A DNA stretch of 64,000 bases from a candidate division WOR-1 bacterium RIFOXYB2_FULL_36_35. Lineage in GTDB: Bacteria; Margulisbacteria; WOR-1; XYC2-FULL-46-14; XYC2-FULL-37-10. Positions 3,040 through 50,547 of the stretch are shown in pieces (position 1 is the stretch's first letter; every line of letters begins with the position of its first letter). A program made the position numbers and the translations under genes. The notes beneath the pieces were generated by a model that searched no databases, had not been told where the DNA came from, and saw nothing but the letters and a program-made list of their open reading frames with translations. The DNA lies in the NCBI GenBank assembly GCA_001771505.1, contig MEUA01000040.1, positions 1 through 64,000 of the forward strand, given 5' to 3'.

Positions 3040-3118
3040 CTTTGTATATGAAATTCCAACCTATTTTTGCCGATAAATATTTAGGAAATAGTAAGAAAAT
3101 TCTACTGGAGGAAATAAA

Positions 3119-4717
3119 ATGTTTTCACAAAAAATATTCGCCGCAAAAAGTCTTCAATATCCATCAAGGGAGGCTCTTCACACAACAATAACAAGAGGAT
3201 TGCAGGGAATTGGAATAACCTCTGAAACAATGCGAGGTAAAAAAGTTTTAATAAAACCGAACTTGGCAGGGCCAAGCTCTGTTCCACATCAATATTCTAT
3301 GACAAGCAGGGATCTGATGATTGCAATGGCTAGATTCGCGCAAGAAGGCGGGGCATCTGAAGTCATAATCGCAGACCATTGTGCAGGTTATACAAACCAG
3401 CTTTATCACGTTCCAGACTATATCCCATTTTTTAGCGCTGATATTGGTTTAGAATCTTTGGCTCAACAGCATAATATAGCTTTTTACGATTTACATCGCG
3501 TCAATTTTGAAGAAAGAGAGGGACTATTCTTCCCCGCTCTTTTAAATGATCCAAATTTATTAATAATCAACATGACACTTCCAAAAACCCATCATCAGGA
3601 CTTTTTATCTCTTTGCCTTAAAAACCTTGGGATGGGGTTAACAGATAACAGAGATAATATGCATCAAAATTTAAGCAAATCAATAATAAGGGCAAACAAT
3701 ATTATAAGATATGGGATGAAAATTCCGGTTATTGACATTGTAGACGGAAGATTTGGTCAGGATGGAATGGGCCCTCATTTTGGGAATCCTGTCGATCCGA
3801 CCTCTCCTTTTATTTTATTTGGCACTGATCCTGTAGCGGTCGATGCGACAGCCGCAAGACTTATGGGATTTGATCCATACAATATCAATACAATAAGATT
3901 AGGGCATAATACAATTTTAGGACATATTGACAGATCTGTATTAGGAGACATTAACGAACTAACTCCAACAAAATTTACACCATCTCCCGCATGGGAATTT
4001 AGCATAACAGAAGATAGAAGAGCTATACTCTTTTGGCTTGATGAAGACGGCATTGGGCGTTTAAGGATCTACACACTAAATGAAAGACTTCACCAATTTA
4101 TCTTAAACAGGGAAAAAAGGATCCTCTTCAGAGAAAATATAACAAAAGATGAGGCTGATGATATTGTTTTCGGAGAAAACCATTCGGATATAATAAACGA
4201 CCCTGATTTTGTATATTACGCGGATCCTGCTGTCGAATTTTTCACTGAGTCAGATAACAACACACAAACATTAAGTGGATTAAGAGGATGGATAAGCCCT
4301 TCAACTTATAATTTAGGTTGTACCATTGCAGCCGCGGCAAAAAACACCAGGCTGGAAGTGACTGTTGCATATAATGAACCCCAATTTCCTAATCGGGGTG
4401 AAGCAAGCTCAAGTTATTTTCTAACTTATAATGATGAATCTCAACAAACTAATTACTCTCCTAACCAGAACATCATTATCCCCGGATCTTCTTCTTTAGC
4501 AAGAAAACTTTATATGGCAGGTATCAGAAGAATGAATATCTTAAAAGGGATAAGAGCTATGGATTTTGAAACAGCGGTAAAACAAACCCTATACAATGAT
4601 ATGACAAGAAAGGAACAGCTAATAGCAGCAGGAATGTCTATCGCGGCAATAGGATCAATTTATACTGCCGCAAGATCTGGTTTGTTTTATTTAATGCAAT
4701 CATTTCTTGGCTTTTGA
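3119..4717 (+). CDS. DUF362 domain protein with extra C-terminal region
   Basis: Residues about 1-280 match the DUF362 family, proteins of unsettled function sometimes linked to iron-sulfur maturation. Recognisable segments are KVLIKPNLAGP, EVIIADHCAG, INMTLPKTHHQDFLSLCLKNLGMG, and PVIDIVDGRFGQDGMGP followed by FGTDPVAVDATAARLMGFDP. The cysteine cluster of ferredoxin-fused members is absent. The C-terminal 250 residues, 532 in all, resemble nothing I recognise; they end in a hydrophobic segment. At 4377-4400 a P1 palindrome is inserted in frame and translated as NEPQFPNRGEA. Start ATG has TGGAGG nine bases upstream. Function is unknown. Confidence 0.8.
   Translation: MFSQKIFAAKSLQYPSREALHTTITRGLQGIGITSETMRGKKVLIKPNLAGPSSVPHQYSMTSRDLMIAMARFAQEGGASEVIIADHCAGYTNQLYHVPDYIPFFSADIGLESLAQQHNIAFYDLHRVNFEEREGLFFPALLNDPNLLIINMTLPKTHHQDFLSLCLKNLGMGLTDNRDNMHQNLSKSIIRANNIIRYGMKIPVIDIVDGRFGQDGMGPHFGNPVDPTSPFILFGTDPVAVDATAARLMGFDPYNINTIRLGHNTILGHIDRSVLGDINELTPTKFTPSPAWEFSITEDRRAILFWLDEDGIGRLRIYTLNERLHQFILNREKRILFRENITKDEADDIVFGENHSDIINDPDFVYYADPAVEFFTESDNNTQTLSGLRGWISPSTYNLGCTIAAAAKNTRLEVTVAYNEPQFPNRGEASSSYFLTYNDESQQTNYSPNQNIIIPGSSSLARKLYMAGIRRMNILKGIRAMDFETAVKQTLYNDMTRKEQLIAAGMSIAAIGSIYTAARSGLFYLMQSFLGF
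4377..4400. repeat. P1 palindrome inside the DUF362 coding sequence
   Basis: The sequence AACCCCAATT, a 4-base gap and AATCGGGGTG lies in frame within the DUF362 gene, around residues 420-428. Outside genes the same palindrome is non-coding, so this is a tolerated in-frame insertion. Confidence 0.75.
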
Positions 4718-4752
4718 GGAAAGCATAGATAAGATAAATCATAAAAAAGGGA

Positions 4753-5358
4753 TCAAGAATGAAAGTCTCTTCTCCCCTCAAAAGATTTTGACAGCGTAGC
4801 TTCGTCCACGTAATCCAAGTCCCCTCCAATTGGCAACCCGTAAGCTATCCGAGTCACCCTGACTCCTAAAGGAGACAAAAGTTTTGTAATATACATAGCA
4901 GTAACCTCTCCCTCTGTCGTTGGGTTCATCGCAAGGACAACTTCGGAAATCTTTAAAGCAACAATCCTTTGAAGAAGTTCCTTTATTCTTAAAGCATCCG
5001 GACTTACACCGTCCAAAGGAGAGATAACCCCACCCAAAACATGATAAACCCCCTTAAAACTTCTGCTTCTCTCTATTGCCATCAAATCTTTTGGCTCTTC
5101 AACAACACAAATAATATCCTTTTCCCGAGACTCATCAATACATATTTCACAAGGGTCCTTATCCGTTATATGAAAACATTGAGAACAATTTTTGATATTC
5201 TTTTTTGCCTCCACAATTGTCCTGGCAAGCTCTTCTACTTCCTGTTCTGTCACCCCAAGAATATAAAAAGCAAGCCTCTGTGCAGACTTAGGCCCAACGC
5301 CGGGAAGACGCTTTAAAACTTCTATCAAGTTATTCATTGCTGAAGAATATCGGCTCAT
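4753..5358 (-). CDS. recR: Recombination mediator RecR
   Basis: RecR acts with RecF/RecO to load RecA at gaps in DNA. The 201-residue length is standard. Domains in order are the N-terminal HhH (RLPGVGPKSAQRLAFYIL), the zinc-binding CSQCFHITDKDPCEIC, and the Toprim domain from about residue 80. The latter holds VVEEPKDLMAIE, YHVLGGVISPLDGVSP and VVLAMNPTTEGEVTAMYI, then GLPIGGDLDYVDEATL. Start ATG has AAAGG upstream. It is the third gene of the conserved dnaX-ybaB-recR arrangement, but a 90-bp repeat has entered between ybaB and recR. Confidence 0.97.
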   Translation of the reverse strand: MSRYSSAMNNLIEVLKRLPGVGPKSAQRLAFYILGVTEQEVEELARTIVEAKKNIKNCSQCFHITDKDPCEICIDESREKDIICVVEEPKDLMAIERSRSFKGVYHVLGGVISPLDGVSPDALRIKELLQRIVALKISEVVLAMNPTTEGEVTAMYITKLLSPLGVRVTRIAYGLPIGGDLDYVDEATLSKSFEGRRDFHS

Positions 5359-12949: not shown

Positions 12950-15900
12950 ATGCAAGCTCAAGTTAGAACGCAAAGAAAACCTATAAACTTTTTAAGGCTA
13001 TGCTATGCCGTAAATACAAACACCCCTCCTATCTCGGACGCAAATAGAAATAATGCCGCATTTCTGTTAAATCCGTATATTACATCTCAATCATTGATAT
13101 CTTCCAAAAAGGCAAGGAGATTATATGGAAAATGCAATCAAATATTAAATAATCTACTTACTGTAACAGGTTTACCAAGAGAGACATTTAAACTCCACAT
13201 AATAAAAGAAGAAATTCCTAATGCTTATATTTTTACAGGGAGTAGAGAGATCTACACGACTACAGCCCTTTTAGAAGGAAAAGATATGTCCGAAGGGGAA
13301 TACGCGGCGATTTTAAGCCATGAAATAGCGCATTACCTAAAATCTTCAAAAATTAAACCTCAATCTCAAAAAAATAAAACCTACAAATTATATGAAGTTT
13401 GGGCTAAATTAGCTCAAAGACAATTTGAGGAATTTGAAGCGGATGAACTGGCATTAATAATTATGGATGCAGCAGGTTATTCAGTAAACGAGGCTTTAAG
13501 TATCACCAAAAAATTATCTTTAAATACAAATCCAAATAGTACCGATACAAGATGGTTAGACCCAACAAGCACCCATCCCGACTGGGGAGCAAGGCTCGCA
13601 AAGACTGAATCAAATATTGAAAATCTAAAATTTTTATGGAAGAACATAAACAACGTCAAAAAACAACTGTTAAACACAAAAGAAAAATCGCAACTTTACA
13701 CCCATTCTTTATTAGAATCCTCTATTGCAAAAATAAAAAAAATCGCCCTGCCAACAGAATTAGATCTTCCATCATCTGTAAGATTAATTAAGTTTCATAA
13801 ATTAAATATACATTTATTCCCTGTTTTTTGGGAAAGATTGAAAAAAATGGCAAGGGATCCAAGTTTAAGAGACCCTTTTAATCTTGAAACGGTAGACTAT
13901 CTTTCACAAAAATACTCTTTTAAAAAAGATTTTATTGTATTTGTATTTTATTATATTTTGCATAAACAAAAGATCGAACTTTCTGATCAATTAAGCAATT
14001 TCATATTACAATTAAAAAAACGCGAATTACAAGGAGACTTTGTATCAACCCTATATCTTAAAGCATTAATATGTGTTATATGCTCAAAATCCTGCACGGG
14101 GAAAACTCTTATCCAAAAGATAAAGTGGCTTAGAGAAAAATGTAATATAAAACAAGAAGAAATCCTCTTGGCGCTAATGGAGTTGCTTGATAATGTATCT
14201 TTTTTATTTTTTGAGGATTTCAACCTTGAAGAAGCAAGCCCCCTCTTTCTTTATTACATTAATAAATTACTCCCTTTCAATTATAACCTTGAAGAGATTC
14301 TCGCCCCTTTTTCGTATTCAGACTTAAGAGATTTATTTTTGCTTAAAATATTAAGTGTCCACACAATAATCCCGGACGCAGAAAGATATGTGGATCTATC
14401 ACTTGACAAATTTTTTAAAAAAAAGCTGTCTACTAAAGAATTAGTGGCAAGATTAAAACCAGACGCAATAAGATTATTCAATGCTCCGCCATCTGATGAT
14501 ATCTACAAACCCACAGAACGACTTGGTGAATATCCCTATGATCAAGATATGATGGAGATGCATGACTTAGATTACTTTATACTAGAGGAAGGTTTTCCTT
14601 ATAGCATAAAAAAATTCGAAGCCTCTTTTAGAGAAGAAAATACAACAGCAAAAATATTGGCAGTTCATACACAAGAAAGTATTATAGAAGCTTATCTAAA
14701 AAGAAAAAAAACAGCAGAGAAACACACCAGCAAAACAATAAAAAAGAGAGCTTTAACTTATAGCAGACTGATTCTAGCTAAAAAATTAGAAAAAATTCCC
14801 GCTGACCAATGGAACAACCATACAATTAAATTTATTGAGGCGCTTCCTCCTTCAAATGAAAAGAACCTTTTAGTAATATTAATGGCAAAAGCAGGAAGGA
14901 GGAACGTTTTAGACTCGGAATTAAAATTTGAAACAGTTAAAATGAAAACATCCTCCGCATCATTTTTAGATTTTTTTGGATTTGTCGACACTGACGCGAC
15001 AGAAGAGATATATCCTACAGGACAAAGGATGCTGGATAGTTTTCTTGCTGAAAGATTGCCAAAAACCGGAACGATAGAACTTAAAACCGCCTGCAGTTTA
15101 ATTCCACGCCCAAGTCCGGGAAGAGACAAAATTTTAGATCGCGTCGAGTCCGAAGATTTAAAAGAGGCCGAACTTTTACTTAATGCCTATTTTAGTCCGC
15201 CTGCCGCGTACGCAAAAGCCTATCAGATTTCAAAGGGATGGATCAATTCTCCTTCAGGACAAGAGACAAAAACATTTGAAGATATATTTAAACTGACAAA
15301 AAAATACCCATCACTAAAAAGAAGGATGACAAAAGAATGGACAAATAGATTTGGAGTATCAAAAACTATCTACCCTAAAGCAGTAAAAGCTTATTCAGAA
15401 GTAGACGCGACAGATATTTTAAAAGGAATTACGTTCTCCGAAACAAAAAAAGCAAGTGTTGCCTCCAAAATAGCAATATGCTTGGGCACGTTTACTCCGG
15501 CAATTACTAAAGAAGATTTCTCTTTTTTAAGCATACAAAGACAAGATTCCGAGACTTCTCCCGAAACTTATGAAGAAGAAGATGATGATGAAAGTAGTTA
15601 TGAGCAAAGAGAAGACCCTATCGGAAGATATTATGATCCAAAAGAAATGCTTGCAATATCCAACTATTACCCGCTCTTACCGTCAAGTATTCTTATGGTA
15701 TCTCAAATAATACAAGAAAGGATCCCTTTTTCAATACACACAATACCGATGGTCGATGATATGCCGAGACCTCAACCGTTCTTCAAAAAAAGTTCAATAG
15801 AAGAAGAGATTTCCCAAGAAATAAAAGAGATGAAACAATGGGACATTACTAAATCATTTTTCAGTTTTATGAGCGCGGTAGGCTGGGAAGAATCCTCAGC

Positions 15901-17548
15901 TTTTTATGAAGAGGCTTTAATAGATTTGTCGGAAGACAAAGAAATTTTAGCTCGACTTGAAAAAATATTCTTAAAAGGAATAGGGCTTATTCTTCAGACA
16001 GAAAAAGTCTCTTTAAGCGCCGCAAAAGCCACAGAAAATGGGCTGGAAAATCTTCTGAAAAATCAAAACTTGCGGACCAGAATAAAAATATGGGCAAAAA
16101 TATTAGCCGGAATAGCGCAAAAACAACCTATAGAAGAAATAACCAGGGAGGCTGTAAAACCGCTAGGAATAGACGGGAAAAAACTTATGCAGCCAATCCA
16201 TTCCTTAACATCAGGAGTTGAACCAAAACTTGAACAGGCAACAAGACTCTCTTTAAGTGACACATCCTCTTTGGATCTTTTAGACGGTATAAAATTTTTG
16301 GCCTTTAGGGGACTTGACCCTTTTGCCATACACGAGAAATATTCCCTTCTAGGATCAGGATCCATAAGGACAGCTATATCAGGCGAAAACGGAAGGATAC
16401 ATGATGAAGCATTCCTCATAGTACACGCTCCCGCAATGGATGTAACTACAAGAGATGGAATATACATGTTTATTACAGATATGAGAAAGAAAGAAATATA
16501 TTTCCCGCTTACTCCGGAACAATATATCATAGGATCAAGGCAGGCTGAAGACGAAAGGAGAAATGGCTTTTTAAACCACAATGGATTTGGAGAATTCTTC
16601 GGCTGGAAACTTGGAAATTTAACTATTCCTAAAATACTAGAAGCACATCCGGAACTTGGTTACGCAAGGATGGAATGGGTAAAAGGAAAATCATTTAATG
16701 CTCTAACAAAAGATGAAAAAGATAAATTTTCTCCTTTGGTTATTGAAGGAGTAACAGCACAATTTATGAACCCTACACCCAAAGGAGTTTTCTTATTCAA
16801 CCCGGAATTTCATGAAGGGAATCTAACTCTTAGCATGGATAATAAGTTATATCTTACAGATTGCGGACTTACTACCTTTGTCACAGCAAGCGAATTACTC
16901 TCTTTTATCTCAACCATTTCCTCTTTCAGGGGAGAAGGATTGCCTGGAGCAGCCGCAATGCTGTTGCAGCAAGGAAATATACAACATCTCTCCCAACTAA
17001 GAAAAGGAAAGGAATCACAACTTATATCAGCGTTAAAAGTAATATCCCAAAAAAGAGAAATTGTTTCCTCTCCAGAATCCCTCCTTTCCGAAGTAGCAGC
17101 AATAGCAGCAAAAACATCAGATTTTAAGATCACTTCAGGCTTTGACTCACTCTCAAGAGGGTTTCAATATCTCGCCCCATACATAAGACGATCTGGACAA
17201 ATTCCCTCTTTAGCGTTTATACCTCAAATACAAAAAATGCCTTTGGCAGATGAAATAAAAGAAAAACTAGCGCCATCTTCGGATGATAAAACAAGCAAAA
17301 CTTTTCTCCCCTCAGGAATGGAAATAGGAAAAAAACTAAGAGACGGAAGCATAAATACGTTGGGAGTAATTACAACCCCAACCACTCTTTTCACCTTTAA
17401 AACAGAATTAGGAGGAAAAGAGATCCAAACAACACTTGTAGAATGCCAGTTAGGGGAAGGAACTGTCTCAAAAGTGCCTCCATCTCTTTTAATGGTAAAA
17501 AAACAAGGGGGATGGGTATCTTATGAAGATTTTTTAAAAACACAATAA
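12950..17548 (+). CDS. Giant protein: N-terminal M48-type zinc peptidase, C-terminal kinase-like domain
   Basis: 1532 residues, no signal peptide. Residues about 80-230 look like an M48/Ste24 peptidase: ILSHEIAHYLK puts the zinc HEIAH at 124-128, and the third ligand is expected in EFEADELALIIMDAAGY (about 161-177). A long unrecognised middle (about 240-1130) includes acidic DDDESS runs. Near residue 1134, LGSGSIRTA resembles a glycine-rich loop. MEWVKGKSF looks like a hinge region. FHEGNLTLSMDNKLYLTDCGL (written in parts: HEGN at about 1288, DCG at about 1304) resembles the catalytic loop and metal motif of ABC1/UbiB or APH-type kinases. The 3' end overlaps convergent maf by 15 bases. A peptidase fused to a kinase-like module is unfamiliar to me; both activities are inferred from motifs only. 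Confidence 0.7.
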   Translation: MQAQVRTQRKPINFLRLCYAVNTNTPPISDANRNNAAFLLNPYITSQSLISSKKARRLYGKCNQILNNLLTVTGLPRETFKLHIIKEEIPNAYIFTGSREIYTTTALLEGKDMSEGEYAAILSHEIAHYLKSSKIKPQSQKNKTYKLYEVWAKLAQRQFEEFEADELALIIMDAAGYSVNEALSITKKLSLNTNPNSTDTRWLDPTSTHPDWGARLAKTESNIENLKFLWKNINNVKKQLLNTKEKSQLYTHSLLESSIAKIKKIALPTELDLPSSVRLIKFHKLNIHLFPVFWERLKKMARDPSLRDPFNLETVDYLSQKYSFKKDFIVFVFYYILHKQKIELSDQLSNFILQLKKRELQGDFVSTLYLKALICVICSKSCTGKTLIQKIKWLREKCNIKQEEILLALMELLDNVSFLFFEDFNLEEASPLFLYYINKLLPFNYNLEEILAPFSYSDLRDLFLLKILSVHTIIPDAERYVDLSLDKFFKKKLSTKELVARLKPDAIRLFNAPPSDDIYKPTERLGEYPYDQDMMEMHDLDYFILEEGFPYSIKKFEASFREENTTAKILAVHTQESIIEAYLKRKKTAEKHTSKTIKKRALTYSRLILAKKLEKIPADQWNNHTIKFIEALPPSNEKNLLVILMAKAGRRNVLDSELKFETVKMKTSSASFLDFFGFVDTDATEEIYPTGQRMLDSFLAERLPKTGTIELKTACSLIPRPSPGRDKILDRVESEDLKEAELLLNAYFSPPAAYAKAYQISKGWINSPSGQETKTFEDIFKLTKKYPSLKRRMTKEWTNRFGVSKTIYPKAVKAYSEVDATDILKGITFSETKKASVASKIAICLGTFTPAITKEDFSFLSIQRQDSETSPETYEEEDDDESSYEQREDPIGRYYDPKEMLAISNYYPLLPSSILMVSQIIQERIPFSIHTIPMVDDMPRPQPFFKKSSIEEEISQEIKEMKQWDITKSFFSFMSAVGWEESSAFYEEALIDLSEDKEILARLEKIFLKGIGLILQTEKVSLSAAKATENGLENLLKNQNLRTRIKIWAKILAGIAQKQPIEEITREAVKPLGIDGKKLMQPIHSLTSGVEPKLEQATRLSLSDTSSLDLLDGIKFLAFRGLDPFAIHEKYSLLGSGSIRTAISGENGRIHDEAFLIVHAPAMDVTTRDGIYMFITDMRKKEIYFPLTPEQYIIGSRQAEDERRNGFLNHNGFGEFFGWKLGNLTIPKILEAHPELGYARMEWVKGKSFNALTKDEKDKFSPLVIEGVTAQFMNPTPKGVFLFNPEFHEGNLTLSMDNKLYLTDCGLTTFVTASELLSFISTISSFRGEGLPGAAAMLLQQGNIQHLSQLRKGKESQLISALKVISQKREIVSSPESLLSEVAAIAAKTSDFKITSGFDSLSRGFQYLAPYIRRSGQIPSLAFIPQIQKMPLADEIKEKLAPSSDDKTSKTFLPSGMEIGKKLRDGSINTLGVITTPTTLFTFKTELGGKEIQTTLVECQLGEGTVSKVPPSLLMVKKQGGWVSYEDFLKTQ

Positions 17549-38003: not shown

Positions 38004-38375
38004 TTATTTCGGACAATGAATTCTATAACGCCCTTCAGTTAAAACGACCAAAACACTTTTGCAGTCAAGAAGTTTTTTCTCTTCATTCTTTAACATTTCC
38101 ATGAATTCCGATACAATCTTTTGTATATTAATCAACGTATAACGAAACAAAACAACTTTCCCTTTGCCAAACAAACAACCAAACTCCAACAGTCCTCCAA
38201 AGTCTTTGTCGCCTGTTAACAGAATAAATCCCCTCTTCTGACAATATTCCAAAATCTCATAATCTTTACGCCCTGCTAACGCAGCATCAAATACAGTCAT
38301 TATATCAAGGCTTTTTTCACGTAAAGAAGAAATTATTTCGGAATGAACATTTTCATCTGCAAAAAACTTTAGCAT
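38004..38375 (-). CDS. DUF5615 PIN-like toxin
   Basis: 123 residues. The opening KFFADENVHSEIISSLREK carries the first acidic residues of the PIN-like nuclease fold. The next conserved block is FILLTGDKDFGGLLEFG. This family (Mut7-C-like/DUF5615) is almost always next to a DUF433 gene, as here: the DUF433 stop codon TAA is directly followed by this ATG. By family it is an RNase toxin of a type II toxin-antitoxin pair. The start codon adjacency suggests coupled translation. Confidence 0.85.
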   Translation of the reverse strand: MLKFFADENVHSEIISSLREKSLDIMTVFDAALAGRKDYEILEYCQKRGFILLTGDKDFGGLLEFGCLFGKGKVVLFRYTLINIQKIVSEFMEMLKNEEKKLLDCKSVLVVLTEGRYRIHCPK

Positions 38376-41105: not shown

Positions 41106-42596
41106 TTACAATGCTTGAACAAACTCCGTGGTTTTCGAAATAAGAAGGGTTCCGACAGTTTCACCCGGACGATTAAGCCTTTTAATCACATCATATTTAA
41201 GTTCGGTCTCCATCTTCTTTAAGAAACTTAAGGCCTTATTGCAGCCAGACTTTGAAAACTGTTTTAAATAGTTAAAAACCTCACTCCAATATGTAACCTG
41301 GTAATCTTCATCATTTAAATTTTTATTTTTGTTTTTGATTTTATCGTTAATATAAAGAGAGATAGTACGGAAATTAATAGACCGATCAACTAAAACAAAT
41401 TCTGATTCCTCAACAATCTTTTTTAATTCCAAAGCTATCTTCTCAAAATACTCACAATAAAGTCCCATTAACGTTTTATCGCCCAAATCATAAATCTCGG
41501 AGTTTAAAGCGTTCCAGTCAAAGTTTCCTTCTTTAAAGTTATAAAAAAGAGGGATTAAACAAAGCGCGGAAAATATCTCCATTTCAGGAAAACTGGAATC
41601 AAAAAACCAGTTGTCGGCTACATATAACGAAAGCTGGTCAAGTTTTTTATTTTTAAACATTTCACCAAGAGGGCTTTTTGTCTCGTCACCCGGGAGCCAA
41701 TCGGTAAAAACCTCAAGCAGATGAGACAAAATATTTTCATCAAGCACAGTAGAAGCCTTTGCTATACTCAAAAGCTCCTTATCTTTTATGTATTTTTCAG
41801 CGCTATTATGATTTAACTCATGCAGAAAGAGATTATCCATAAAAGATGAAATAAACTTTTTTGATTTTGTCTTAAAATCTTTTTCGGTTTTAATTTCAAA
41901 CTGGTTAAGCGTTACTCTTTTTATCTTATCAATTAATTTCTGATCAGGTTCACCCCGATTATTCACACCGATTAAGAAATCGGGGTTGATTTCTGGTTTT
42001 ACCGTGAATAATCGGGGCTCACTGCTTTGAAAAAAGTCTCGCCATTTTTGGTAGAATAGAAAACGGGCGGAGGTTTCGCGTAAGAATATATTTTTGCCGC
42101 TGACCATGGCAGCAACCAGAAGATGGCAACCGGGAGTTACGGCAACTTCACTCTTAAAACGATAGACAAGATAATCTTTTACTTTTTTACAGGAGGCCTC
42201 ACCAAAAATAAAAAATTTGTGCTCGCCGTAAAAACCGCTGCACAATCTTAAATTTGAGCCCTCCTCTTCTAATAACCTGTTTATCGTCGAACAATCACTT
42301 ACAGGATAATCCTGACCCCCAAGAGTCAGCCTGAACTCTTTTTCGAGTCTTTTTAATTCAGCTATCTCAGTCGGCAGATTGTAGCTCTTTATCAACTCGG
42401 TCAACTTAACATTTAATATTCCAAATGCCAGGTTGCTAAGCTTATCTTCAAGCGGCACCTTCATTAAGTGGTAACAAAAAGAGATCTGAACTGCCTGCCA
42501 ATTAATACCTTCCGGCAGTTTATTCTGCCAGATAAGATATTGCATTACAGACAGCTTCCTGATCTGCTCCTCAATTGACTTTTCAATTTCTACCAC
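41106..42596 (-). CDS. Unknown protein with HELNH motif, last gene of the ClpB-like operon
   Basis: 496 residues, family unknown. FMDNLFLHELNHNSAEKYI has HELNH at 259-263, a possible zinc site; a later ligand is not obvious. The start is GTG with AAGG seven bases upstream. At residues about 192-218 the protein contains SEPRLFTVKPEINPDFLIG followed by VNNRGEP, encoded by a composite P1 repeat (41943-42023); a closely similar peptide appears in the IMPase at 58021. The gene lies 36 bases after the 115-residue gene and is the fourth of a run of minus-strand genes. Cytosolic by absence of a signal peptide. Confidence 0.6.
   Translation of the reverse strand: MVEIEKSIEEQIRKLSVMQYLIWQNKLPEGINWQAVQISFCYHLMKVPLEDKLSNLAFGILNVKLTELIKSYNLPTEIAELKRLEKEFRLTLGGQDYPVSDCSTINRLLEEEGSNLRLCSGFYGEHKFFIFGEASCKKVKDYLVYRFKSEVAVTPGCHLLVAAMVSGKNIFLRETSARFLFYQKWRDFFQSSEPRLFTVKPEINPDFLIGVNNRGEPDQKLIDKIKRVTLNQFEIKTEKDFKTKSKKFISSFMDNLFLHELNHNSAEKYIKDKELLSIAKASTVLDENILSHLLEVFTDWLPGDETKSPLGEMFKNKKLDQLSLYVADNWFFDSSFPEMEIFSALCLIPLFYNFKEGNFDWNALNSEIYDLGDKTLMGLYCEYFEKIALELKKIVEESEFVLVDRSINFRTISLYINDKIKNKNKNLNDEDYQVTYWSEVFNYLKQFSKSGCNKALSFLKKMETELKYDVIKRLNRPGETVGTLLISKTTEFVQAL
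41943..42023. repeat. Composite P1 repeat in frame inside a coding sequence
   Basis: Contains CACCCCGATTATTCAC, ACCGATTAAGAAATCGGGGTT and GAATAATCGGGG as inverted units. It is translated on the minus strand as EPRLF and NPDFLIGVNNR. Confidence 0.8.
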
Positions 42597-42632
42597 TAAT
42601 GTACCTTAGTTTAAAGCTTAAAGCGCCAGAAA

Positions 42633-42980
42633 CTATGCTCTAGCTTGTGCAATAAAACTGTCTCTATCCAATCCGGGACTAAGCTGTACCAATTCATCAA
42701 CACTCAACAATTGTGCGGTGTTAGGACCGGTAAGACCTTCAAAAGCTATGTACACTTTATTCGGATCATCAGGAACCTTACTGGCAAGCTCCTGCATTGC
42801 AGCTGGATTTGCTGCAAGTAAAGCGTTAAATTTAGTATCATTTATAGCATCCTTAGGACCTAACCCTGAAAGGCGCTCATTTACAGGCTGAATCTGTCCT
42901 ACGGTCAAAGGCCGTCCAACTAATTGTCCTCCTATTTTTCTGACCCCTAAACTTACTGGAATCTGAACTTGTTGTGGCAT
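42633..42980 (-). CDS. Hypothetical 115-residue protein of the ClpB-like operon
   Basis: No family recognised. It is Gln/Leu/Pro-rich at the N-terminus (PQQVQIPVSLGVRKIGGQLVG). A helical C-terminus follows, with NAQLLSVDELVQLSPGLDRDSF-like text (written as TAQLLSVDELVQLSPGLDRD). There is no signal peptide or membrane segment. AGGAGGTGA precedes the ATG, the strongest ribosome site in the operon, so it may be made in excess over its neighbours. It lies 37 bases after the giant AAA+ gene. Could be an adaptor or substrate of the unfoldase; this is a guess from position only. Confidence 0.6.
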   Translation of the reverse strand: MPQQVQIPVSLGVRKIGGQLVGRPLTVGQIQPVNERLSGLGPKDAINDTKFNALLAANPAAMQELASKVPDDPNKVYIAFEGLTGPNTAQLLSVDELVQLSPGLDRDSFIAQARA

Positions 42981-43017
42981 ATTATTTCACCTCCTGTTAT
43001 TATAATACTAAACTTAT

Positions 43018-46000
43018 TTATTGCAACTCTGCCTCAAAAACCTTGGGAGAGCCGGCCCTTTTTCCTGTCACAGAAACATTTAAAATTCTACCACTACCAG
43101 TCTCTCTTACTGCCAACATAATCACAGCCCCTCCAGCCCTTTGGAAGAAAGAATCATTATTTAAAAGGGCCCCAAGAGTAACATCACTTGAGCTCCCAGT
43201 GCTCCCATTCATTACTAAGGTAAATTTATCATCATTTCTATTTATTGCTCCTTCCAAAAGAGCACAAACGCTCTCCAAAACAGGACGATTATCTGCTAAA
43301 AGCGCCAATGTGTCAACCGCACCCTGAGGTCCACCGGAACCACTTTGATACCCAAGCAACTGATTTGACCCTTCAGTAAATTTTTTCATAGAAGGCGCCC
43401 TTTTGGCAATTACTTTTTTCAAAGCGTCGGTCTTTCCTTGTGTTTCTCTCTCCAACAACAATGCCATAGCAATAAAAGGTCCAGGATTTTCTTTGGCAAT
43501 TTGATCCTCCATAAGCGATTCTAAGGCTGCTTTAAGCTGACCTACACGTTCAGGCGTATTTGCCAATTTTACTAGGCTATCAAATTCTGTCTTTAACCAA
43601 TTAATCATCTTTGGTTTTAATTCATTATTATCCCGATATGTTTGAGCAAGTTGAGATATAAAATCAAAGGCTTGATAAGCCTGATCATAATTGACCTCAT
43701 AAGCTTTTTTAGCGCTAACAACAATCTCAAAAACTGAAGGGAATATAGTATCTCTAAAAGAGTCATCATTTAAGACTTTCTCGGAAATACCTTTTAACAA
43801 ATTAAGATCAATTTCTTTAAAAAGATTCTCAAACACAGTTTCCCAAAAGCCAAACTGATCTTGACTTGTAAAAGCTGAGCAGTTGACATCCATTAGCGCC
43901 ATTAGATGGTAGCCATTGGTTCGAGCTCTCTCCGCTTTTTGCTTTATTCTATAATTAGCGCGAGTTGAAGTTCTAATATCTCTTAAAAAATTACGTCCTG
44001 CGTCAGTACTAGGCTGTGACATATTATGTAAAAAATCATACATAACAAAAACCAACCCACTATCTCCTCTTGAAGAAATATCTTCCAAGATACTTACCAT
44101 AGTATCTAAATCGTTTGGCATCTCCATCTCTGTCACAGCTTCAAAGTTTTGATACAGCTTTAACCAAAACTCCCTAGCCGATCTAGCAGTGCCAATAAAA
44201 TCAAGTTGTGCAGTTGGATCAGAAAGACCACTTCCTATACTCCCCGTCATTCTGTTGCTAATTGCATTTTGTAATAAATTTAATGGGCCTCCCGAAATTG
44301 CCACATGCTTTATTAATCTACTAATAAAAACGTCCTGTTTTGGAGAACTGTTTATATCCCTCATAAGCTGTGCTGCTTCAGTAAAACCTAATCTTTCGGG
44401 CACAACATTAGATATTGGAACATCAAATTCTCTTATAAAATCAGAAACCCGATTATTTAAAGCTTCTTCTTCAGCCTGTGATACGCTTACACCTTCATTT
44501 GTATTAAAAACAAAATTAGCAGTATAGCCTCCTGTTACTTTAACTTCAAAACGAACACGATTGCCCTCTTCAGAAGAAGCTAGAATAGTAGAATCCTCTC
44601 GTTCTAATAATCTGCACAAATAAGGATCAGCAGCAATTTTAGGCTTTATCCCGTTAAGTTTAACACCATCCATCCCACCAGCATAGCGAATAGCATTTCT
44701 ACGTTGTAATGTTGCAAAAGTATCTGTAACTGTTGATAAATCTAATTGTTGTTTATCAATCCTGAGTTTAGATGCCAGTTCAGAAATGTTATTCCTAATG
44801 CCACCTTGCGCAATCATCATTTCTGCTGTTCTATATTCCGACATAAAACTCATATCACTCGCGCGCAAGGCATCACGCAACAACACATTAACACTAACAT
44901 TTTGCAACAGAGGGGACCCCTGAGGAAAAATCAACTTAAAACCATCTCCAATATATGTAGCATAATCATCATTAGTAACATCTCCGCTATCCTCAGCAAC
45001 CCCTTTCTGTTCAGCTACATAAGCGCTTAAAGCTTTTCTTACTGAGCCAACAATAGGATCTGTCTCCAAGAAAGAAGCAGGCTGAACTTCCCATCCCGCA
45101 ACATGAGAAGACAAGAACTCTCGCATATAATCTGTATTTTTTGTATATCCCCCGTCATTATTCCATCTGGTTATATCAAATATTTCAGTATTAAGCTCAA
45201 TAGGAGCTCCCACTGGAGAAGAACTGCTAGGCAAGGCAACTTGAGGATATACAAAAGGAGCTTCCATCCAGTAACTAATATTCCCCTCTTCAATATAAAA
45301 GCCAATTCTAGCTTCAGGCCCTGCTATATCTATTAGTTTACCAAGCCCTATCAGTAGAGACTCGTTTACCACCACTCCCTCCGCATTAGCAGCTTCCACA
45401 ATCCTTCGCGCAGCTGCTGAATTACTTACAGCCTTTTCAGAGTAAAGTTTCATCAGTTTTAACTCCCTATCTGTCAATTTACACGGGATAGAAATTTTAA
45501 AACGAACTTTATCTCCAGATAAAAGATCCCATTCACAGAGGCTGTTTGTAGCTTTTTTCGCTGTTATAACCCTATTAATAAAAACTTCATCCCCATTGCC
45601 TCTTCTAGCCAAAGAATCAAAGCTTTCCTGTTTTTTGCCAAAATCGGTCCTAAGACTATAATCAAACAGGGTTTTGGCCGCCATGCTTACTAAACCTTTA
45701 GCAACGTCTTGCGCCGCTGTAGCAAAGTCATCTGTAACACCAATATCCCCTAAGTGCTGACTGAATAATTTTAATCCAATAGAAGCAGCTGTCTTTCTAA
45801 AGTTAACCGTCGTCTTTTCAACAGCGGTAATAAGTTTTCCTCCCTGAGCTATTTCCGATGGCTCAAAGTCAAGGGATGTTCCACGATCAACAATTTTTTC
45901 TCCGTTTAACAAACGTCTTATCTCTTCCATAGATACATCATAACTGGCATAAACCTGATTAAGTGCGACGGCCTGATCATGAAAATGCTTAACCAATCCA

Positions 46001-48726
46001 CCTGCTTCACCCTCCTGATCGGGAAGAAGAGACAAATCAGGATCTCCTAATTCAACAATATCTACTTCAATGGCTTCATTATCAACAGATACAACAACTC
46101 TTGTATTGCTTGGTGATTTAGAGCTAGACTCAAAAGCTTTAACCAGTCTATCGCTTACTTCATTGCCAAAAATCTCTTCAATACCACGTCCGCCACGATC
46201 TTCTAAGTCAGGAACCTTTTTTATGAGTAAATCATAAACCTCATCAGCAATTTCCACATCACAGTTTTTCATCTTCTTCTGTTCTTCTATAAATTTTCTG
46301 GCCGTTATCCGTATAATCGCCTGTGCCATCTCCATGCTAATACTATTAAAAGCAAAAATTCCTCCACCAACCATAATACGAGCTAAAAACTCAGGCCTAT
46401 AGCCTGCAACTTGATATGCCTCTCGAATTATCTTAGCATTTTCCTTTTCTATTCTTTTGAGTTCTGCAGCCCTTTCTTCAACAATACGACGACGTTCAGC
46501 CAATGCATTATCACTCTCTGCCCGATCATTTAACCATCCTCTTATTTCAGCTAATTCACTTACAGCAGAAAGAGTATCTAAATGATAATCTCCTTTAGAA
46601 ATATTCTCCTTAGAACTACTAAGATATGTATCCAATGCTTTAAGAGAGGGAGCTTTTTCATCCCCTTCACCAGGGCTACCTATCCCAACAGCAAACAACT
46701 CCCTTTTTTCCTTCAACTCTTCTAACACCAGCCTACGATGAGAAGATAACAACTTATCATATCTTTCAGACCCTGAAAGATTAACAGCTGCAAAAACCTC
46801 TTTATCTCCACGGCTACGCGCATCCAAAAGAGTATCAAGTTGGGCTAAGCCTGTCTTGTCTCCTTCAGGAAAAACACCTCGTTGCAGATCATCAGTATGC
46901 TCAGTTAAAAACCTTCTAACCAAAGCTTCCTTTTCAGAAACTTTCGCTGCTTCATCAAATCTGGTTTCCTGTTGCAAAATTTCACTATCGCGCGCAAATC
47001 TTATTGCAAGCGCCTCTATAACAGAAACGGTCTCTCTTCGAAACCCTAACAATTCATCAAACCCCTCATCAATTTCACCCATACCTGTATATATTAATCT
47101 CTCACTTCCAAGATTACTTGTAAGAATAACAGCTGTCTCTCTAAAATCAATGACTTCACCCTTTCCTGTTTCAGCCGTAGCCGTATCCAAAATTCCAAGC
47201 AAAACCTTCTGAGCATCAGGATGCATTTTTTCAAATTCATCAATCAAAAATACACACTGACCTCCTTTTGCTTTAATTCTATCAAAAACACAAGGATCCC
47301 CATATCCAATCCAAGTTGCCGTCGCACCTGTCAATTTAGTCAAATTTTGCTTTTCAGCATATTCTCCACCATTTATTTCAACTAAATTATCTGCGTTTTT
47401 ATATAATACCCGAGCTAAACATTTTGCAGTTTGAGTTTTACCGGTACCTGTTTTCCCTGCAAAAAGGCCAACAAAAAGAGGTTTTTTGGGGTCTGAAAGT
47501 CCCAGTTTTGCCCTTTTAATACGAGTAGATAAAGTCTCCATAACCACATCCTGCCCCACAACCTCCTTTTTCAATTCATCAACTAAAGAGTCCAGTAATT
47601 TTCTGTCTAAAGCCTCAAAATCTTTAGAGGGGAGTCCTGTCAAAACAGCAAGCGCTTCATAAACAATATCTTCCGTTAACACCAACGCCCCTTCCTGTTC
47701 AGCTGTTTTTTTATCTTTTAAAAACTTTTTAATATTCTCTGACAAATAATCCAAACAGTCTTTTGCTGATCTCTCATCTTTCTGTTCCAATGCCCTTAAA
47801 TATTCATTAAATATCCTTAATAAATTATTACAAGTCATCCTAAAACTAACATTCAACATATTACTTTTTGTCGTCAACCTAGAAACAGACTGTTCCAAAA
47901 GTTTAATTGAACGAGAAGGGTTATATCCACTCCGCTGAGCATCAATATATCTTACAGCCAACTCAACTATAAGATTTACCATGGCATCAGGAACTTCAAG
48001 AGTAACAGGTAGCGCAGCATATTTTGATCTTGCCAACATAGTCTTTCTATGCTGGCGCAAGATTAACTTTGTCAAACTCGGTGTAGCCTCTGGAATCGGC
48101 ACAATAGTCCAACGCCTATCCATAGCAGGAATTATAGATAAATATTTTTTATGTTCCTCAACTGTTGTCGCAAAAATAAAATGGCTATTAGGATCATTCA
48201 ACATCGGCTTCATAAGTTCAATAATTGGAGAAGAATCTCCAACTTCTGTCTTCCCTAAGCAATGTGCTTCATCAACAAAAATCAATGTATTAGGCTTTTT
48301 CTTTAAATATGCTTTTAACTGTTTTATTTTTTCAGCAGCACTCCCATTCGTAGCAGACAGGTCTCCAGCATCCATATACATTATTTCAATTGTAGAATTA
48401 GCCTCTCCAGTGATAAAAGCAGGATCCATCTGTTTTTCCATAAACTCTTTTGCAATATATTTTGCTAAAACAGTCTTTCCTGTCCCGGGAAAACCTAAAA
48501 GCATTACATTCCCATTGCTGTCAGTTGCCAAAATAGACAATATATCCTCTATCTGTTTATCACGTGCAATAACAGGATCTACTTCTTCAAGGTTAAACAT
48601 CTCTTGAAATGGAGTTAAAAATTCAGGTATTTCAACATCCCCCGCACCATTTGCAGCAGAAGGAACATTCTGTATGTTAGCAGAGACAATTTTATTATAA
48701 AGAAAATATAATCTGTTTTTCAGCAT
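43018..48726 (-). CDS. Giant ClpB-like double AAA+ protein with long unknown C-terminus
   Basis: 1902 residues. Residues 50-300 are a first AAA+ module: Walker A LLGFPGTGKT (78-85) and Walker B TLIFVDEAH. Residues about 375-860 are a Clp-type D2: EVVGQDVVMETLSTRI, Walker A GKTGTGKT (424-431), CVFLIDEFEK, and sensor 1 TSNLGSE (536-542). A charged insertion of about 230 residues (545-775) separates this from the sensor-2 side (GYRPEFLARI, DRGGRGIEE). No Clp N-domain is present, and the M-domain is short or absent. The last 1040 residues are unrecognised, with two beta-rich stretches that look alike (GDKVRFKISIP, GNRVRFEVKV). It should be an ATP-driven unfoldase. The ATG follows the previous stop by four bases. 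Confidence 0.8.
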   Translation of the reverse strand: MLKNRLYFLYNKIVSANIQNVPSAANGAGDVEIPEFLTPFQEMFNLEEVDPVIARDKQIEDILSILATDSNGNVMLLGFPGTGKTVLAKYIAKEFMEKQMDPAFITGEANSTIEIMYMDAGDLSATNGSAAEKIKQLKAYLKKKPNTLIFVDEAHCLGKTEVGDSSPIIELMKPMLNDPNSHFIFATTVEEHKKYLSIIPAMDRRWTIVPIPEATPSLTKLILRQHRKTMLARSKYAALPVTLEVPDAMVNLIVELAVRYIDAQRSGYNPSRSIKLLEQSVSRLTTKSNMLNVSFRMTCNNLLRIFNEYLRALEQKDERSAKDCLDYLSENIKKFLKDKKTAEQEGALVLTEDIVYEALAVLTGLPSKDFEALDRKLLDSLVDELKKEVVGQDVVMETLSTRIKRAKLGLSDPKKPLFVGLFAGKTGTGKTQTAKCLARVLYKNADNLVEINGGEYAEKQNLTKLTGATATWIGYGDPCVFDRIKAKGGQCVFLIDEFEKMHPDAQKVLLGILDTATAETGKGEVIDFRETAVILTSNLGSERLIYTGMGEIDEGFDELLGFRRETVSVIEALAIRFARDSEILQQETRFDEAAKVSEKEALVRRFLTEHTDDLQRGVFPEGDKTGLAQLDTLLDARSRGDKEVFAAVNLSGSERYDKLLSSHRRLVLEELKEKRELFAVGIGSPGEGDEKAPSLKALDTYLSSSKENISKGDYHLDTLSAVSELAEIRGWLNDRAESDNALAERRRIVEERAAELKRIEKENAKIIREAYQVAGYRPEFLARIMVGGGIFAFNSISMEMAQAIIRITARKFIEEQKKMKNCDVEIADEVYDLLIKKVPDLEDRGGRGIEEIFGNEVSDRLVKAFESSSKSPSNTRVVVSVDNEAIEVDIVELGDPDLSLLPDQEGEAGGLVKHFHDQAVALNQVYASYDVSMEEIRRLLNGEKIVDRGTSLDFEPSEIAQGGKLITAVEKTTVNFRKTAASIGLKLFSQHLGDIGVTDDFATAAQDVAKGLVSMAAKTLFDYSLRTDFGKKQESFDSLARRGNGDEVFINRVITAKKATNSLCEWDLLSGDKVRFKISIPCKLTDRELKLMKLYSEKAVSNSAAARRIVEAANAEGVVVNESLLIGLGKLIDIAGPEARIGFYIEEGNISYWMEAPFVYPQVALPSSSSPVGAPIELNTEIFDITRWNNDGGYTKNTDYMREFLSSHVAGWEVQPASFLETDPIVGSVRKALSAYVAEQKGVAEDSGDVTNDDYATYIGDGFKLIFPQGSPLLQNVSVNVLLRDALRASDMSFMSEYRTAEMMIAQGGIRNNISELASKLRIDKQQLDLSTVTDTFATLQRRNAIRYAGGMDGVKLNGIKPKIAADPYLCRLLEREDSTILASSEEGNRVRFEVKVTGGYTANFVFNTNEGVSVSQAEEEALNNRVSDFIREFDVPISNVVPERLGFTEAAQLMRDINSSPKQDVFISRLIKHVAISGGPLNLLQNAISNRMTGSIGSGLSDPTAQLDFIGTARSAREFWLKLYQNFEAVTEMEMPNDLDTMVSILEDISSRGDSGLVFVMYDFLHNMSQPSTDAGRNFLRDIRTSTRANYRIKQKAERARTNGYHLMALMDVNCSAFTSQDQFGFWETVFENLFKEIDLNLLKGISEKVLNDDSFRDTIFPSVFEIVVSAKKAYEVNYDQAYQAFDFISQLAQTYRDNNELKPKMINWLKTEFDSLVKLANTPERVGQLKAALESLMEDQIAKENPGPFIAMALLLERETQGKTDALKKVIAKRAPSMKKFTEGSNQLLGYQSGSGGPQGAVDTLALLADNRPVLESVCALLEGAINRNDDKFTLVMNGSTGSSSDVTLGALLNNDSFFQRAGGAVIMLAVRETGSGRILNVSVTGKRAGSPKVFEAELQ

Positions 48727-48730
48727 CTAA

Positions 48731-49438
48731 TTATCTTCCGTTAGATTGTGAACCAGGCTTAGAAGTTGGACTTCCGCCAACTTTCTTTCCTCCAGAAACA
48801 CTAGAGGTTGCCTTTGGAGGAACAGCAAGAGCCTTTTCTCTTGAGAACGCTTCAACTTTTGAATAGAGATCAAGCATCTTGTTAGCCAGATGACCAACAA
48901 CGCCATCTGAAGCCAGTTTTTTGTCCAATGCCTTTATATGTCTTTGATCTTCTGGATTAGCAGCTTCTAATCCAATATGATCTCTCAATAATGCTTTTAA
49001 TGCATCAACTTGCGCTTTGTCAGATAATCTTGATAGATCTGCGGCTTCAAACCAATCTTCAAAAGCATGGGATATTTCATGTTCATCCAAGTTAAAATCA
49101 ACCGCATCAACTCCCATCTCTCTCTTTAACTCCGTGACCAACTTCGATATAAACCCATTAACTAAACCTTTAATACTATCAATTTCAGCTTCAAATTTCT
49201 GTGCTAACTCTCTATCATGCCCCTCAAGTCCTGTAATAACAGCCCCTAAATTTGCAAAAATAATTTCTTTCGTATTACATGTTGCAACCATAAGTGTCTG
49301 AGGAGGATCAATAAATAAAAACTGCGCGCGGGCCGCGATAACGCCAACAGATAAAGATGCTTTCTTTGCGGCAGCAGAGACCACCCTTCTTGCCAAACCG
49401 CCTACTACAAACCTAACTAAATTTACACTCGTATTCAT
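48731..49438 (-). CDS. Hypothetical protein with HEISH motif, first gene of the ClpB-like operon
   Basis: 235 residues, no recognised family. The middle reads NLDEHEISHAFEDWFEAADL, with HEISH matching HExxH, though the acidic surroundings may make it fortuitous. The N-terminus has a long Ala/Val stretch (RFVVGGLARRVVSAAAKKA) that is amphipathic rather than a signal peptide. The C-terminus is Ser/Gly/Lys-rich and probably disordered. AGGAGG is upstream of the ATG, and the stop lies four bases before the giant AAA+ gene. It therefore likely functions with that protein. Confidence 0.65.
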   Translation of the reverse strand: MNTSVNLVRFVVGGLARRVVSAAAKKASLSVGVIAARAQFLFIDPPQTLMVATCNTKEIIFANLGAVITGLEGHDRELAQKFEAEIDSIKGLVNGFISKLVTELKREMGVDAVDFNLDEHEISHAFEDWFEAADLSRLSDKAQVDALKALLRDHIGLEAANPEDQRHIKALDKKLASDGVVGHLANKMLDLYSKVEAFSREKALAVPPKATSSVSGGKKVGGSPTSKPGSQSNGR

Positions 49439-49524: not shown

Positions 49525-49652
49525 GTCGTATGTTTGCAAAAACTTATCTGTTTCAACACTTCCATAGTTTTTTATCGTATGAAAAAAATTAGAATTTCAA
49601 TGTTTTTTTAAATTCAAAAAAACAAAACAAAAATACTTGAGACAAATAAATT

Positions 49653-49833: not shown

Positions 49834-50151
49834 ATGGAACTAAAAAAAGATAAAAATGTAAGGGAGTTTTTAGTTAATGTAAAAGATTATTTTGGCAAGC
49901 GCTTAAAAAAAATCCTTTTTTTTGGGTCAAGAGCAAGAGGAAATGCTTCTCCTGAATCAGATTATGATTGTATTTTATTGGTTGACGAAATAGGAAGCCA
50001 AGATGAAAAATTTATTGATGAAATTGAAATTAAACTGTTATTGGAAAAGAACATCCTATTTTCAACCTTCTTGACAGAAGAATACAAGTTTAATCAAAGA
50101 AAATATGAACCTTTTTTAATGAACGCCAAAAAAGAAGGAATATATCTATAA
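49834..50151 (+). CDS. MNT-type nucleotidyltransferase (antitoxin or modifier)
   Basis: 105 residues. The minimal nucleotidyltransferase motif IFFGSRARGNASPESDYDCILLV has the GSxxRG and DxD pattern. The following helix/strand segments complete the fold. Directly followed by a HEPN gene (TAA then ATG), the standard MNT-HEPN toxin-antitoxin layout; in known pairs MNT modifies and silences the HEPN RNase. The TATAAT at 49820-49825 is nine bases from the ATG and there is no ribosome site, so it is likely leaderless. Confidence 0.88.
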   Translation: MELKKDKNVREFLVNVKDYFGKRLKKILFFGSRARGNASPESDYDCILLVDEIGSQDEKFIDEIEIKLLLEKNILFSTFLTEEYKFNQRKYEPFLMNAKKEGIYL

Positions 50152-50547
50152 ATGAATGAAGAACTTTCTCTCCAGATATCTTTAATGATTGAAAAATCAG
50201 AAAGAGCGTTAGAAGATGCTAAAGCTTTGCTTGATATAGGAAGCTATGGAGCTTCAGCCTCTCGTTCTTATTATGCCGTCTTTCATATACTGCAATCTGT
50301 TTTATTGACTAAAAATCTTTCCTTTTCAAAACATTCAGGTGTCATAGGTGGATTTTCAAAAAGTTTTATTAAAGAAGGGGTTTTCCCCTCTGATTTTGCA
50401 AATAAAATCAAGAAACTTTGGAAAAATAGAGAAATAGGTGATTATGATTATGAAAAAAAAGTTTCAAGAGATGATGCTGTAAAATGTATAGATGATGCTT
50501 CATTAATTTTAGATTCTATAAAAAAATATATTGAAAGAAGAAAATAA
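50152..50547 (+). CDS. HEPN-domain protein
   Basis: 131 residues, all-helical. SASRSYYAVFHILQSVLL contains the R-x6-H motif used by HEPN RNases. A helical C-terminus with GDYDYEKKVSRDDAVKCIDDASLIL follows. Paired with the MNT gene; the start codon directly follows the MNT stop. By family it is the RNase toxin partner. Confidence 0.88.
   Translation: MNEELSLQISLMIEKSERALEDAKALLDIGSYGASASRSYYAVFHILQSVLLTKNLSFSKHSGVIGGFSKSFIKEGVFPSDFANKIKKLWKNREIGDYDYEKKVSRDDAVKCIDDASLILDSIKKYIERRK

Follow-up and report, generated by a model that had tools for sequence, protein, structure and literature searches.

What do four adjacent genes on the minus strand of an uncultured bacterium encode, when the largest of them specifies a giant protein with two AAA+ modules? 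The genes (g1 to g4, together the cassette) lie in a stretch of 64,000 nucleotides (nt), here called the window, which belongs to contig 40 of the genome of candidate division WOR-1 bacterium RIFOXYB2_FULL_36_35 (G000; 1.95 Mb in 67 contigs). A sequence-only reading of the window had taken the genes for a proteolytic or remodelling system made up of an unfoldase and two possible metallopeptidases. We found that genomes with the cassette also carry a family of proteins with a common N-terminal domain, named KLISF here, and that most genes of this family share a promoter-like motif with the cassette. With the family and the motif, both outside the coordinates of that reading, what had looked like a protease pair now looks like the centre of a system built on a repertoire. 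In our best reading the cassette is a ClpB-centred relative of the conflict systems described by Kaur, Burroughs, Iyer and Aravind in 2020 (PMC7159879), with its own docking domain that resembles their effector-associated domains (EADs). We judge it a little less likely than not that the cassette is the core of an AAA+ machine that uses a repertoire of proteins for recognition and response.

The four open reading frames (ORFs) were confirmed on the minus strand at the positions given in the sequence-only reading. The gaps between g1 and g2, g2 and g3, and g3 and g4 are 4, 37 and 36 nt. Lengths are in amino acids (aa).

48731..49438, minus strand: g1, 235 aa, with HEISH; a conserved partner with D-x-H-x-[IL]-S-H-[AV], not a zincin
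43018..48726, minus strand: g2, 1902 aa, a giant ClpB-type double AAA+ protein
42633..42980, minus strand: g3, 115 aa, small and diverging fast; lies directly before g4 and is proposed as its precursor or partner
41106..42596, minus strand: g4, 496 aa, GTG start, with HELNH; probable gluzincin metallopeptidase
49572..49599, minus strand: promoter-like motif TGAAATT-N15-CGATAA, exact, about 134 nt upstream of g1

Conservation of the four-gene order, which the sequence-only reading had named as a check, was found in related genomes. The complete g1-g2-g3-g4 order is present in two other Saganbacteria (WOR-1), G005 and G025. In a further genome, G007, the cassette is split over two contig ends, one with two copies of g1 and the start of g2, the other with the end of g2 followed by g3 and g4. 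Because the order recurs in G005, G025 and the pieces of G007, the cassette is more than a chance arrangement. The four cassette genomes are spread over three families, two of them in one family, and distant g1-g2 pairs are present in G045 and G053. Neither g4 nor a g2 of the window type was found in G001 and G002, which belong to the same family as cassette carriers, and the distribution of the cassette is thus patchy. Most of the genomes compared are fragmented assemblies.

The KLISF domain comprises about 70 residues at the N-terminus, with M-x3-K-[LIV]-I-[SA]-F-[NDE] followed by LRxxGxPxAxxxI. A profile search of 57 genomes detected it in four, with 16 copies in G000, 4 in G005, 66 in G007 and 45 in G025. 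These are exactly the four genomes with the cassette, and none of the other 53 has the domain (one-sided p 2.5e-6 under independence of the genomes, which does not hold). Since only four genomes carry a close cassette, such co-occurrence statistics rest on few independent events. The profile found no copy in G018 and G022, which have g3 and g4 and no g2 of the window type, and none in G001, G008, G030, G045 and G053, which encode other giant ATPases. A strict 30-base DNA pattern for the tag gave 10, 3, 27 and 44 matches in G000, G005, G007 and G025, compared to 11 in total over the remaining 70 genomes (74 searched) and one for a reversed control.

Of the 131 profile matches, 104 were extracted as proteins. 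In their alignment the K of the tag and a Gly about 44 residues further on are invariant, and in all but one of the 104 the K is preceded by a Met at a distance of 2 to 8 residues, so the domain is strictly N-terminal. The modules behind it are varied. Pfam matches among the 104 proteins include FGE (27), HEAT_2 (10), WD40 (5) and LRR_6 (3), and the C-termini fall into 37 groups by BLAST. Three copies of the domain gave no match to the Pfam EADs up to an expectation value (E) of 1. The 16 copies of G000 are scattered over 14 contigs, while many of those in G025 and G007 stand in tandem arrays. KLISF genes occur on both flanks of the cassette in G005 and after g4 in G007 and G025. The variety of these proteins seems to come from many gene copies. 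Diversity-generating retroelements (DGRs) were considered as its source and rejected: relatives of a reverse transcriptase in G018 were detected in 3 of 15 genomes (weakly in G001), none of which carries the cassette. The reverse transcriptase gene itself (contig C83 of G018, 657-1721) has a small ORF upstream and FGE ends at both contig ends, an arrangement that by eye resembles a DGR in a locus of the MoxR-vWA type.

The second shared feature is the motif upstream of g1, which we scored as TGAAATT-N15-CGATA within 150 nt upstream of operon heads with at most one mismatch. It was present at 30 of 37 KLISF operon heads, whereas among the remaining heads of these loci only 11 of 116 had it (compared by Fisher test), and the spacer is 15 nt in 29 of the 30. 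Exact copies stood at 19 of 37 KLISF heads and 7 of 116 others; by genome, the exact copies at KLISF heads number 2 of 14 in G000, 2 of 2 in G005, 13 of 14 in G007 and 2 of 7 in G025. When up to 250 nt were allowed in G000 without a filter for heads, 14 of its 16 KLISF genes had the motif with at most one mismatch and six had it exactly, counts that have no matched control. An exact motif also precedes three of the four cassettes, at 134 nt in G000, at 16 nt in G005 (before the leading KLISF gene) and at 55 nt in G025. Among 13 operon heads near giant or MoxR-type ATPases, these three cassettes included, seven have an exact copy, two have a copy with one mismatch and four have none.

Genome-wide, exact sites were far in excess of the reversed control in all eight genomes searched (33-188 versus 0 or 1), with 48-188 sites in the four cassette genomes and 33-38 in the four others. 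G000 has 48 exact sites, of which 45 were fetched, one as a piece that was too short; 35 of the remaining 44 have an ORF start on the same strand within 450 nt (a count without a control), and six of these 35 ORFs encode KLISF proteins. A second exact TGAAATT-N15-CGATAA in the window (3049-3076, plus strand) is about 43 nt before an ORF of 532 aa (3119-4717). Another copy in G000 (contig C38, 3939) precedes a sigma-70-like gene (350 aa by eye; TIGR02479 at 4390-4995 of that contig), a possible link of two sigma layers.

The motif consists of two parts with a fixed spacer upstream of genes, as in promoters of the sigma-28 type, and it resembles the promoter consensus of sigma-28, SigD and WhiG. 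FlhA is encoded in 11 of 12 genomes, all four cassette genomes included, and in G000 a FliA-like protein of 196 aa is encoded beside flhA. A FliA-like sigma factor would thus be the candidate for reading the motif. A scan for sigma-70 promoters and terminators gave no excess over shuffled sequences (25 versus 23.9 and 8 versus 6.4).

We propose that the KLISF domain would dock the tagged proteins onto g2, so that one motor could serve many interchangeable recognition arms. Upon binding of a target by an arm, g2 would remodel or unfold the bound complex, driven by ATP, and g4 would then be activated to cut, with either g3 or the target as its substrate. If the MoxR-vWA systems described by Kaur et al. 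are a guide, such a machine would probably serve in defence against invaders or rivals. Sequence features within the cassette are as follows.

48472..48495, minus strand: Walker A of AAA module 1 (GFPGTGKT, residues 78-85 of g2), a sequence motif
47434..47460, minus strand: Walker A of AAA module 2 (AGKTGTGKT, residues 423-431 of g2), a sequence motif
46417..47094 (approximate), minus strand: insertion of about 200 residues in AAA module 2, between sensor-1 TSN and RPEFLARI, from motif spacing
43021..46020, minus strand: C-terminal region of g2, about 1000 residues (903-1902), without a known family
41808..41822, minus strand: HELNH of g4 (residues 259-263); both His and the Glu invariant in 31 of 31 homologues
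41712..41714, minus strand: Glu295 of g4 (EVFTDW), proposed third zinc ligand; E in 31 of 31 homologues
42988..42995, minus strand: ribosome-binding site of g3, AGGAGGTG, 7 nt before the ATG

By its sequence, g2 is a double AAA+ protein of the ClpB type and unfoldase-like. Walker B motifs are located near residues 150 and 494. Its best NCBIfam matches are ClpB, ClpV1 and ClpA, all far under the family cut-offs (237 bits compared to the ClpB cut-off of 1232), which agrees with the sequence-only reading that the protein is unfoldase-like and yet not of a known Clp or Lon type. AAA+ matches start near residue 50. Since only about 50 residues precede module 1, there is no room for ClpN, and this domain was not among the 25 Pfam families listed (of 43) for g2. 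An insertion of 230 residues had been proposed for the second module. The insertion is real and conserved, with 241 residues from TSN to PEF in g2 and 223, 272 and 256 in three homologues, compared to 41-42 in four ordinary Clp proteins (those with both motifs among 12 loci tried); its size is nearer to 200 residues. The novel C-terminus was likewise upheld, at about 1000 residues rather than 1040. It was the best-matching stretch for none of the 25 listed Pfam families, it has no significant sequence match in the PDB (best E 0.065), and its predicted model (mean predicted local distance difference test, pLDDT, of 56; alignment of four rows) gave nothing at E <= 0.001 in a Foldseek search of the PDB; weaker hits were taken to be chance. 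Identity of g2 to its relatives is 42% in G005, 34% in G025 and 60% in G007 (N-terminal part).

The homologues of g4 that we aligned are the 31 of at least 350 aa from the extracted loci, after shorter pieces and near-duplicates were dropped; the loci are the best 30 of the matches listed. No homologue of this length lacked HExxH, and H259, E260, H263 and E295, the last separated from HELNH by 31 residues, are all invariant. On these residues we consider g4 a probable gluzincin metallopeptidase. Of 74 genomes from the phylum, 38 contain members of the g4 family, and a close form (E < 1e-200) occurs in four genomes only. Adjacent pairs of g4-like matches were observed in G043, G052, G054, G056, G059, G064 and G069. 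Residues 89-327 weakly match the Sfum_1244 family NF045620 (E 6e-6), and this identity was rejected because the match, at 25 bits, is under the cut-off of 150. The name Sfum_1244 was not found in the open-licence PMC literature.

Counterparts of g3 have 107-112 aa in G005, G007 and G025 and 101 aa in G018 and G022. A BLAST match was obtained only in G007 (E 9e-6), and the others were assigned by position and by likeness by eye. A small, poorly conserved ORF of 71-214 aa directly precedes the g4 homologue in 16 of 31 cases, judged by eye and without a control. Of the other 15, five follow a tandem copy of g4, three are at or near a contig end, two (G018 and G022) have g3 at a distance of one or two genes upstream, and in the last five the neighbour is a different gene or the ORF is doubtful. 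The pair resembles the module of a zincin plus a small rapidly-diverging protein in Kaur et al., and g4 would then cut g3. In G018 and G022 relatives of g3 and g4 are beside a vWA-like protein (by eye; no Pfam match). Their neighbours in G022 also include an AAA+ protein of the MoxR type with a fused FGE domain, and those in G018 a reverse transcriptase together with a small Avd-like ORF (both named by eye). The g3-g4 module thus appears with two kinds of engine. The MoxR-type and vWA-like proteins of G022 and G018 have tag-like starts by eye. With respect to translation, the sequence-only reading had credited g3 with the best ribosome site; the AGGAGG of g1 is equally good.

The protein g1 is a conserved partner of g2. 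Its homologues are directly upstream of g2 in G005, G025, G007 (two copies), G045 and G053. A role as an HExxH metallopeptidase was rejected. The residue after the first His in the seven homologues whose motif can be aligned is E, E, K, E, T, Q and D, so the catalytic Glu is not conserved (3 of 7) and g1 is not a zincin, while each of the seven keeps D-x-H-x-x-S-H. The alignment also contains four neighbours of greater distance, and these have no such motif. Thus, of the two HExxH metallopeptidases that had been suggested, g4 remains probable and g1 does not.

PMC7159879 describes conflict systems that depend on nucleoside triphosphates, diversify, and are built from MoxR-vWA cores and EADs, with FGS modules and modules of a zincin plus a small rapidly-diverging protein. 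The cassette shares with them an AAA+ core, a small non-enzymatic domain spread genome-wide over varied modules, FGE (FGS) modules and a probable zincin adjoining a small diverging protein. The association of g3-g4 relatives in G022 with MoxR-type AAA+/FGE and vWA-like proteins is a further likeness to the MoxR-vWA systems. In contrast to those systems, the core of the cassette is a giant double AAA+ protein of the ClpB type; a search of the paper for "Clp" found only ClpN, ClpS, Clp-like proteases and two references. The KLISF domain also reaches 66 copies per genome, whereas the record for EAD1 given there is 22. A strict EAD reading is disfavoured, because the definition of an EAD includes a copy on the core and no full KLISF domain was found there. 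The cassette would work like the MoxR-vWA systems and is not a member of them by two tested features, the type of core and the lack of a full docking domain on the core.

Other known systems are more distant. Like the ClpB/Hsp100 disaggregases, g2 contains Walker A and B motifs in each of two AAA+ modules; unlike them, it scores under the curated cut-off, has no room for ClpN, and carries the insertion and the extra C-terminus. An AAA+ module of g2 matches the ClpB-like (candidate) defence proteins DolB and PDC-M37B of PADLOC (E 8e-15 and 2e-24), although the match is limited to the AAA+ parts, and g1, g3 and g4 have no match in PADLOC up to E 1. PMC10907252 describes DGR-diversified C-lectin sensors in ternary conflict systems. 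As in the KLISF proteins, FGE/C-lectin modules occur there on proteins linked to the AAA+ cores of conflict systems, whereas the four cassette genomes have no match to a reverse transcriptase of the G018 type. We recognised no description of a ClpB-centred KLISF system in the open-licence PMC literature, preprints excluded.

The cassette is surrounded by housekeeping genes, namely a GH94 gene (Pfam) and PurL-like and GltX-like genes (by eye). A viral origin was rejected, as no relative of g4 was detected in viral contigs and none of the g2 C-terminus in phages, and a plasmid origin was rejected because plasmids gave no relative of g4; these results refer to the collections searched. Divergent from the cassette is a pair of genes for a nucleotidyltransferase (PF01909) and a HEPN protein (PF05168) with the make-up of a HEPN-MNT toxin-antitoxin system (49834-50547, plus strand). 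A DUF5615 PIN-like protein is encoded between the PurL-like and GH94 genes (38004-38375, minus strand). Elsewhere in the window, an ORF of 1532 aa (12950-17548, plus strand) combines an M48 peptidase match near its start with an ABC1-kinase-like match near its end, just under the cut-off, which is an odd combination.

Several results weigh against a repertoire-based machine centred on g2. The cassette of the window has no adjoining KLISF gene, and the full KLISF domain was not found on g1 to g4 (best E 0.43). The g2 of G005 carries only a short KLISFN tag, and that of the window, at E 51, does not score above decoys. The 25 Pfam families listed (of 66) for KLISF proteins include no nuclease, no TIR and no other domain that kills, so an effector is not evident, and the cassette contains no MoxR or vWA protein (g2 is of the ClpB type; g1, g3 and g4 gave no match). 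The absence of the G018-type diversity-generating reverse transcriptase from the cassette genomes counts on the same side, as do the giant ATPases in G001, G008 and contig C55 of G007, which have no obvious tagged neighbours by eye. The fold of g4 is unconfirmed: its model has a mean pLDDT of 48 (alignment of four rows) and no PDB match at E <= 0.001. Sharing of the motif is weaker evidence than a private promoter would be, because the motif occurs genome-wide and also in genomes without the cassette. Exact copies at KLISF heads are few in G000 and G025, no copy precedes g1 of G007, and with two mismatches allowed the count in the window shows no excess over shuffles (9 versus 5.7).

One alternative, which we consider unlikely, is housekeeping quality control or developmental proteolysis, in which KLISF adaptors, switched on with a motility-type sigma regulon, would select endogenous proteins that g2 then remodels and g4 cleaves. 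Hsp100 proteins work with adaptors, and HEAT, WD40 and LRR repeats are ordinary scaffolds for protein binding. The position of the cassette among housekeeping genes and the sigma-28-like motif, in genomes that mostly encode FlhA, are also consistent with it. However, KLISF copy numbers from 4 to 66 among relatives and very diverse C-termini suit recognition or conflict better, and the patchy distribution, with neither g4 nor the window-type g2 found in G001 and G002, argues against a housekeeping role. Alternatively, KLISF could be a secretion signal and g2 an unfoldase that feeds an exporter, with the HEAT, WD40, LRR and C-lectin proteins as effectors delivered to neighbours or hosts. The strictly N-terminal tag at a nearly fixed distance from the Met, and FlhA in all four cassette genomes, would suit this; late flagellar genes have promoters of a similar type to the motif, and effectors of host-dependent bacteria often contain repeats of these kinds. 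Yet the cassette has no evident envelope component, conserved residues reach to about position 70, which is beyond the needs of an export signal, and a tag-like start on g2 of G005 and on the MoxR-type and vWA-like proteins of G022 and G018 (the latter by eye) is unfit for a cargo signal. We regard export as quite improbable.

It is very improbable, in our estimate, that there is no physical machine at all and that KLISF proteins are lineage-specific paralogues under the same sigma factor, with a co-occurrence that stems from shared ancestry. Both elements occur together in only four genomes, two of them in one family, the motif is at dozens of other genome sites, and the window lacks an adjoining KLISF gene. 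In opposition to this, the four genomes represent three families while the other 53 have no KLISF protein, the cassettes of G005, G007 and G025 have KLISF genes next to them, and a similar arrangement exists at five other giant ATPases.

These five (in G030, G045 and G053, and two in G007) each have two to four neighbours with shared N-terminal regions. Since other giants thus stand next to proteins with other shared N-terminal regions, each motor may have a tag of its own. The regions beside the giants of G030, G045 and G053 gave no match to the KLISF profile; the G045 neighbours nevertheless start with a KLISF-like tag, and the G045 and G053 regions are alike by eye. By this likeness, at least three distinct kinds are possible rather than five. 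Modules on the neighbours include ankyrin repeats on one G045 protein (Pfam) and HEAT and FGE elsewhere (by eye). The giant double AAA+ proteins of G007 (contigs C55, C115 and C130), G030, G001 and G008 have 1043-1420 aa and neighbours of their own, and G007 thus holds at least four giant ATPases, the window-type g2 included. Motor-specific docking domains as a general rule are only a proposal from these sequences, as the distinctness of the tags is uncertain and three giants have no obvious tagged neighbours.

Tentatively, and with rather more doubt than confidence, we extend the reading of the cassette as a repertoire core to Saganbacteria and their relatives in general. Each giant ClpB-type ATPase would work with its own N-terminal docking domain, carried by up to dozens of scattered recognition proteins. 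One unfolding engine and its attached peptidase module would then serve a large and rapidly changing set of binders, and an innate repertoire would arise from gene copies rather than hypermutation within one regulon. If this is true, a second kind of AAA+ engine, giant and of the ClpB type, would be added to the diversifying conflict systems, and the coupling of recognition to proteolysis in NTPase systems would become testable with few purified parts. The docking domain would serve as a clean tag, so that sequence data would suffice to list the partners in any genome, and a large set of co-regulated proteins would be established for an uncultured lineage close to the Cyanobacteria.

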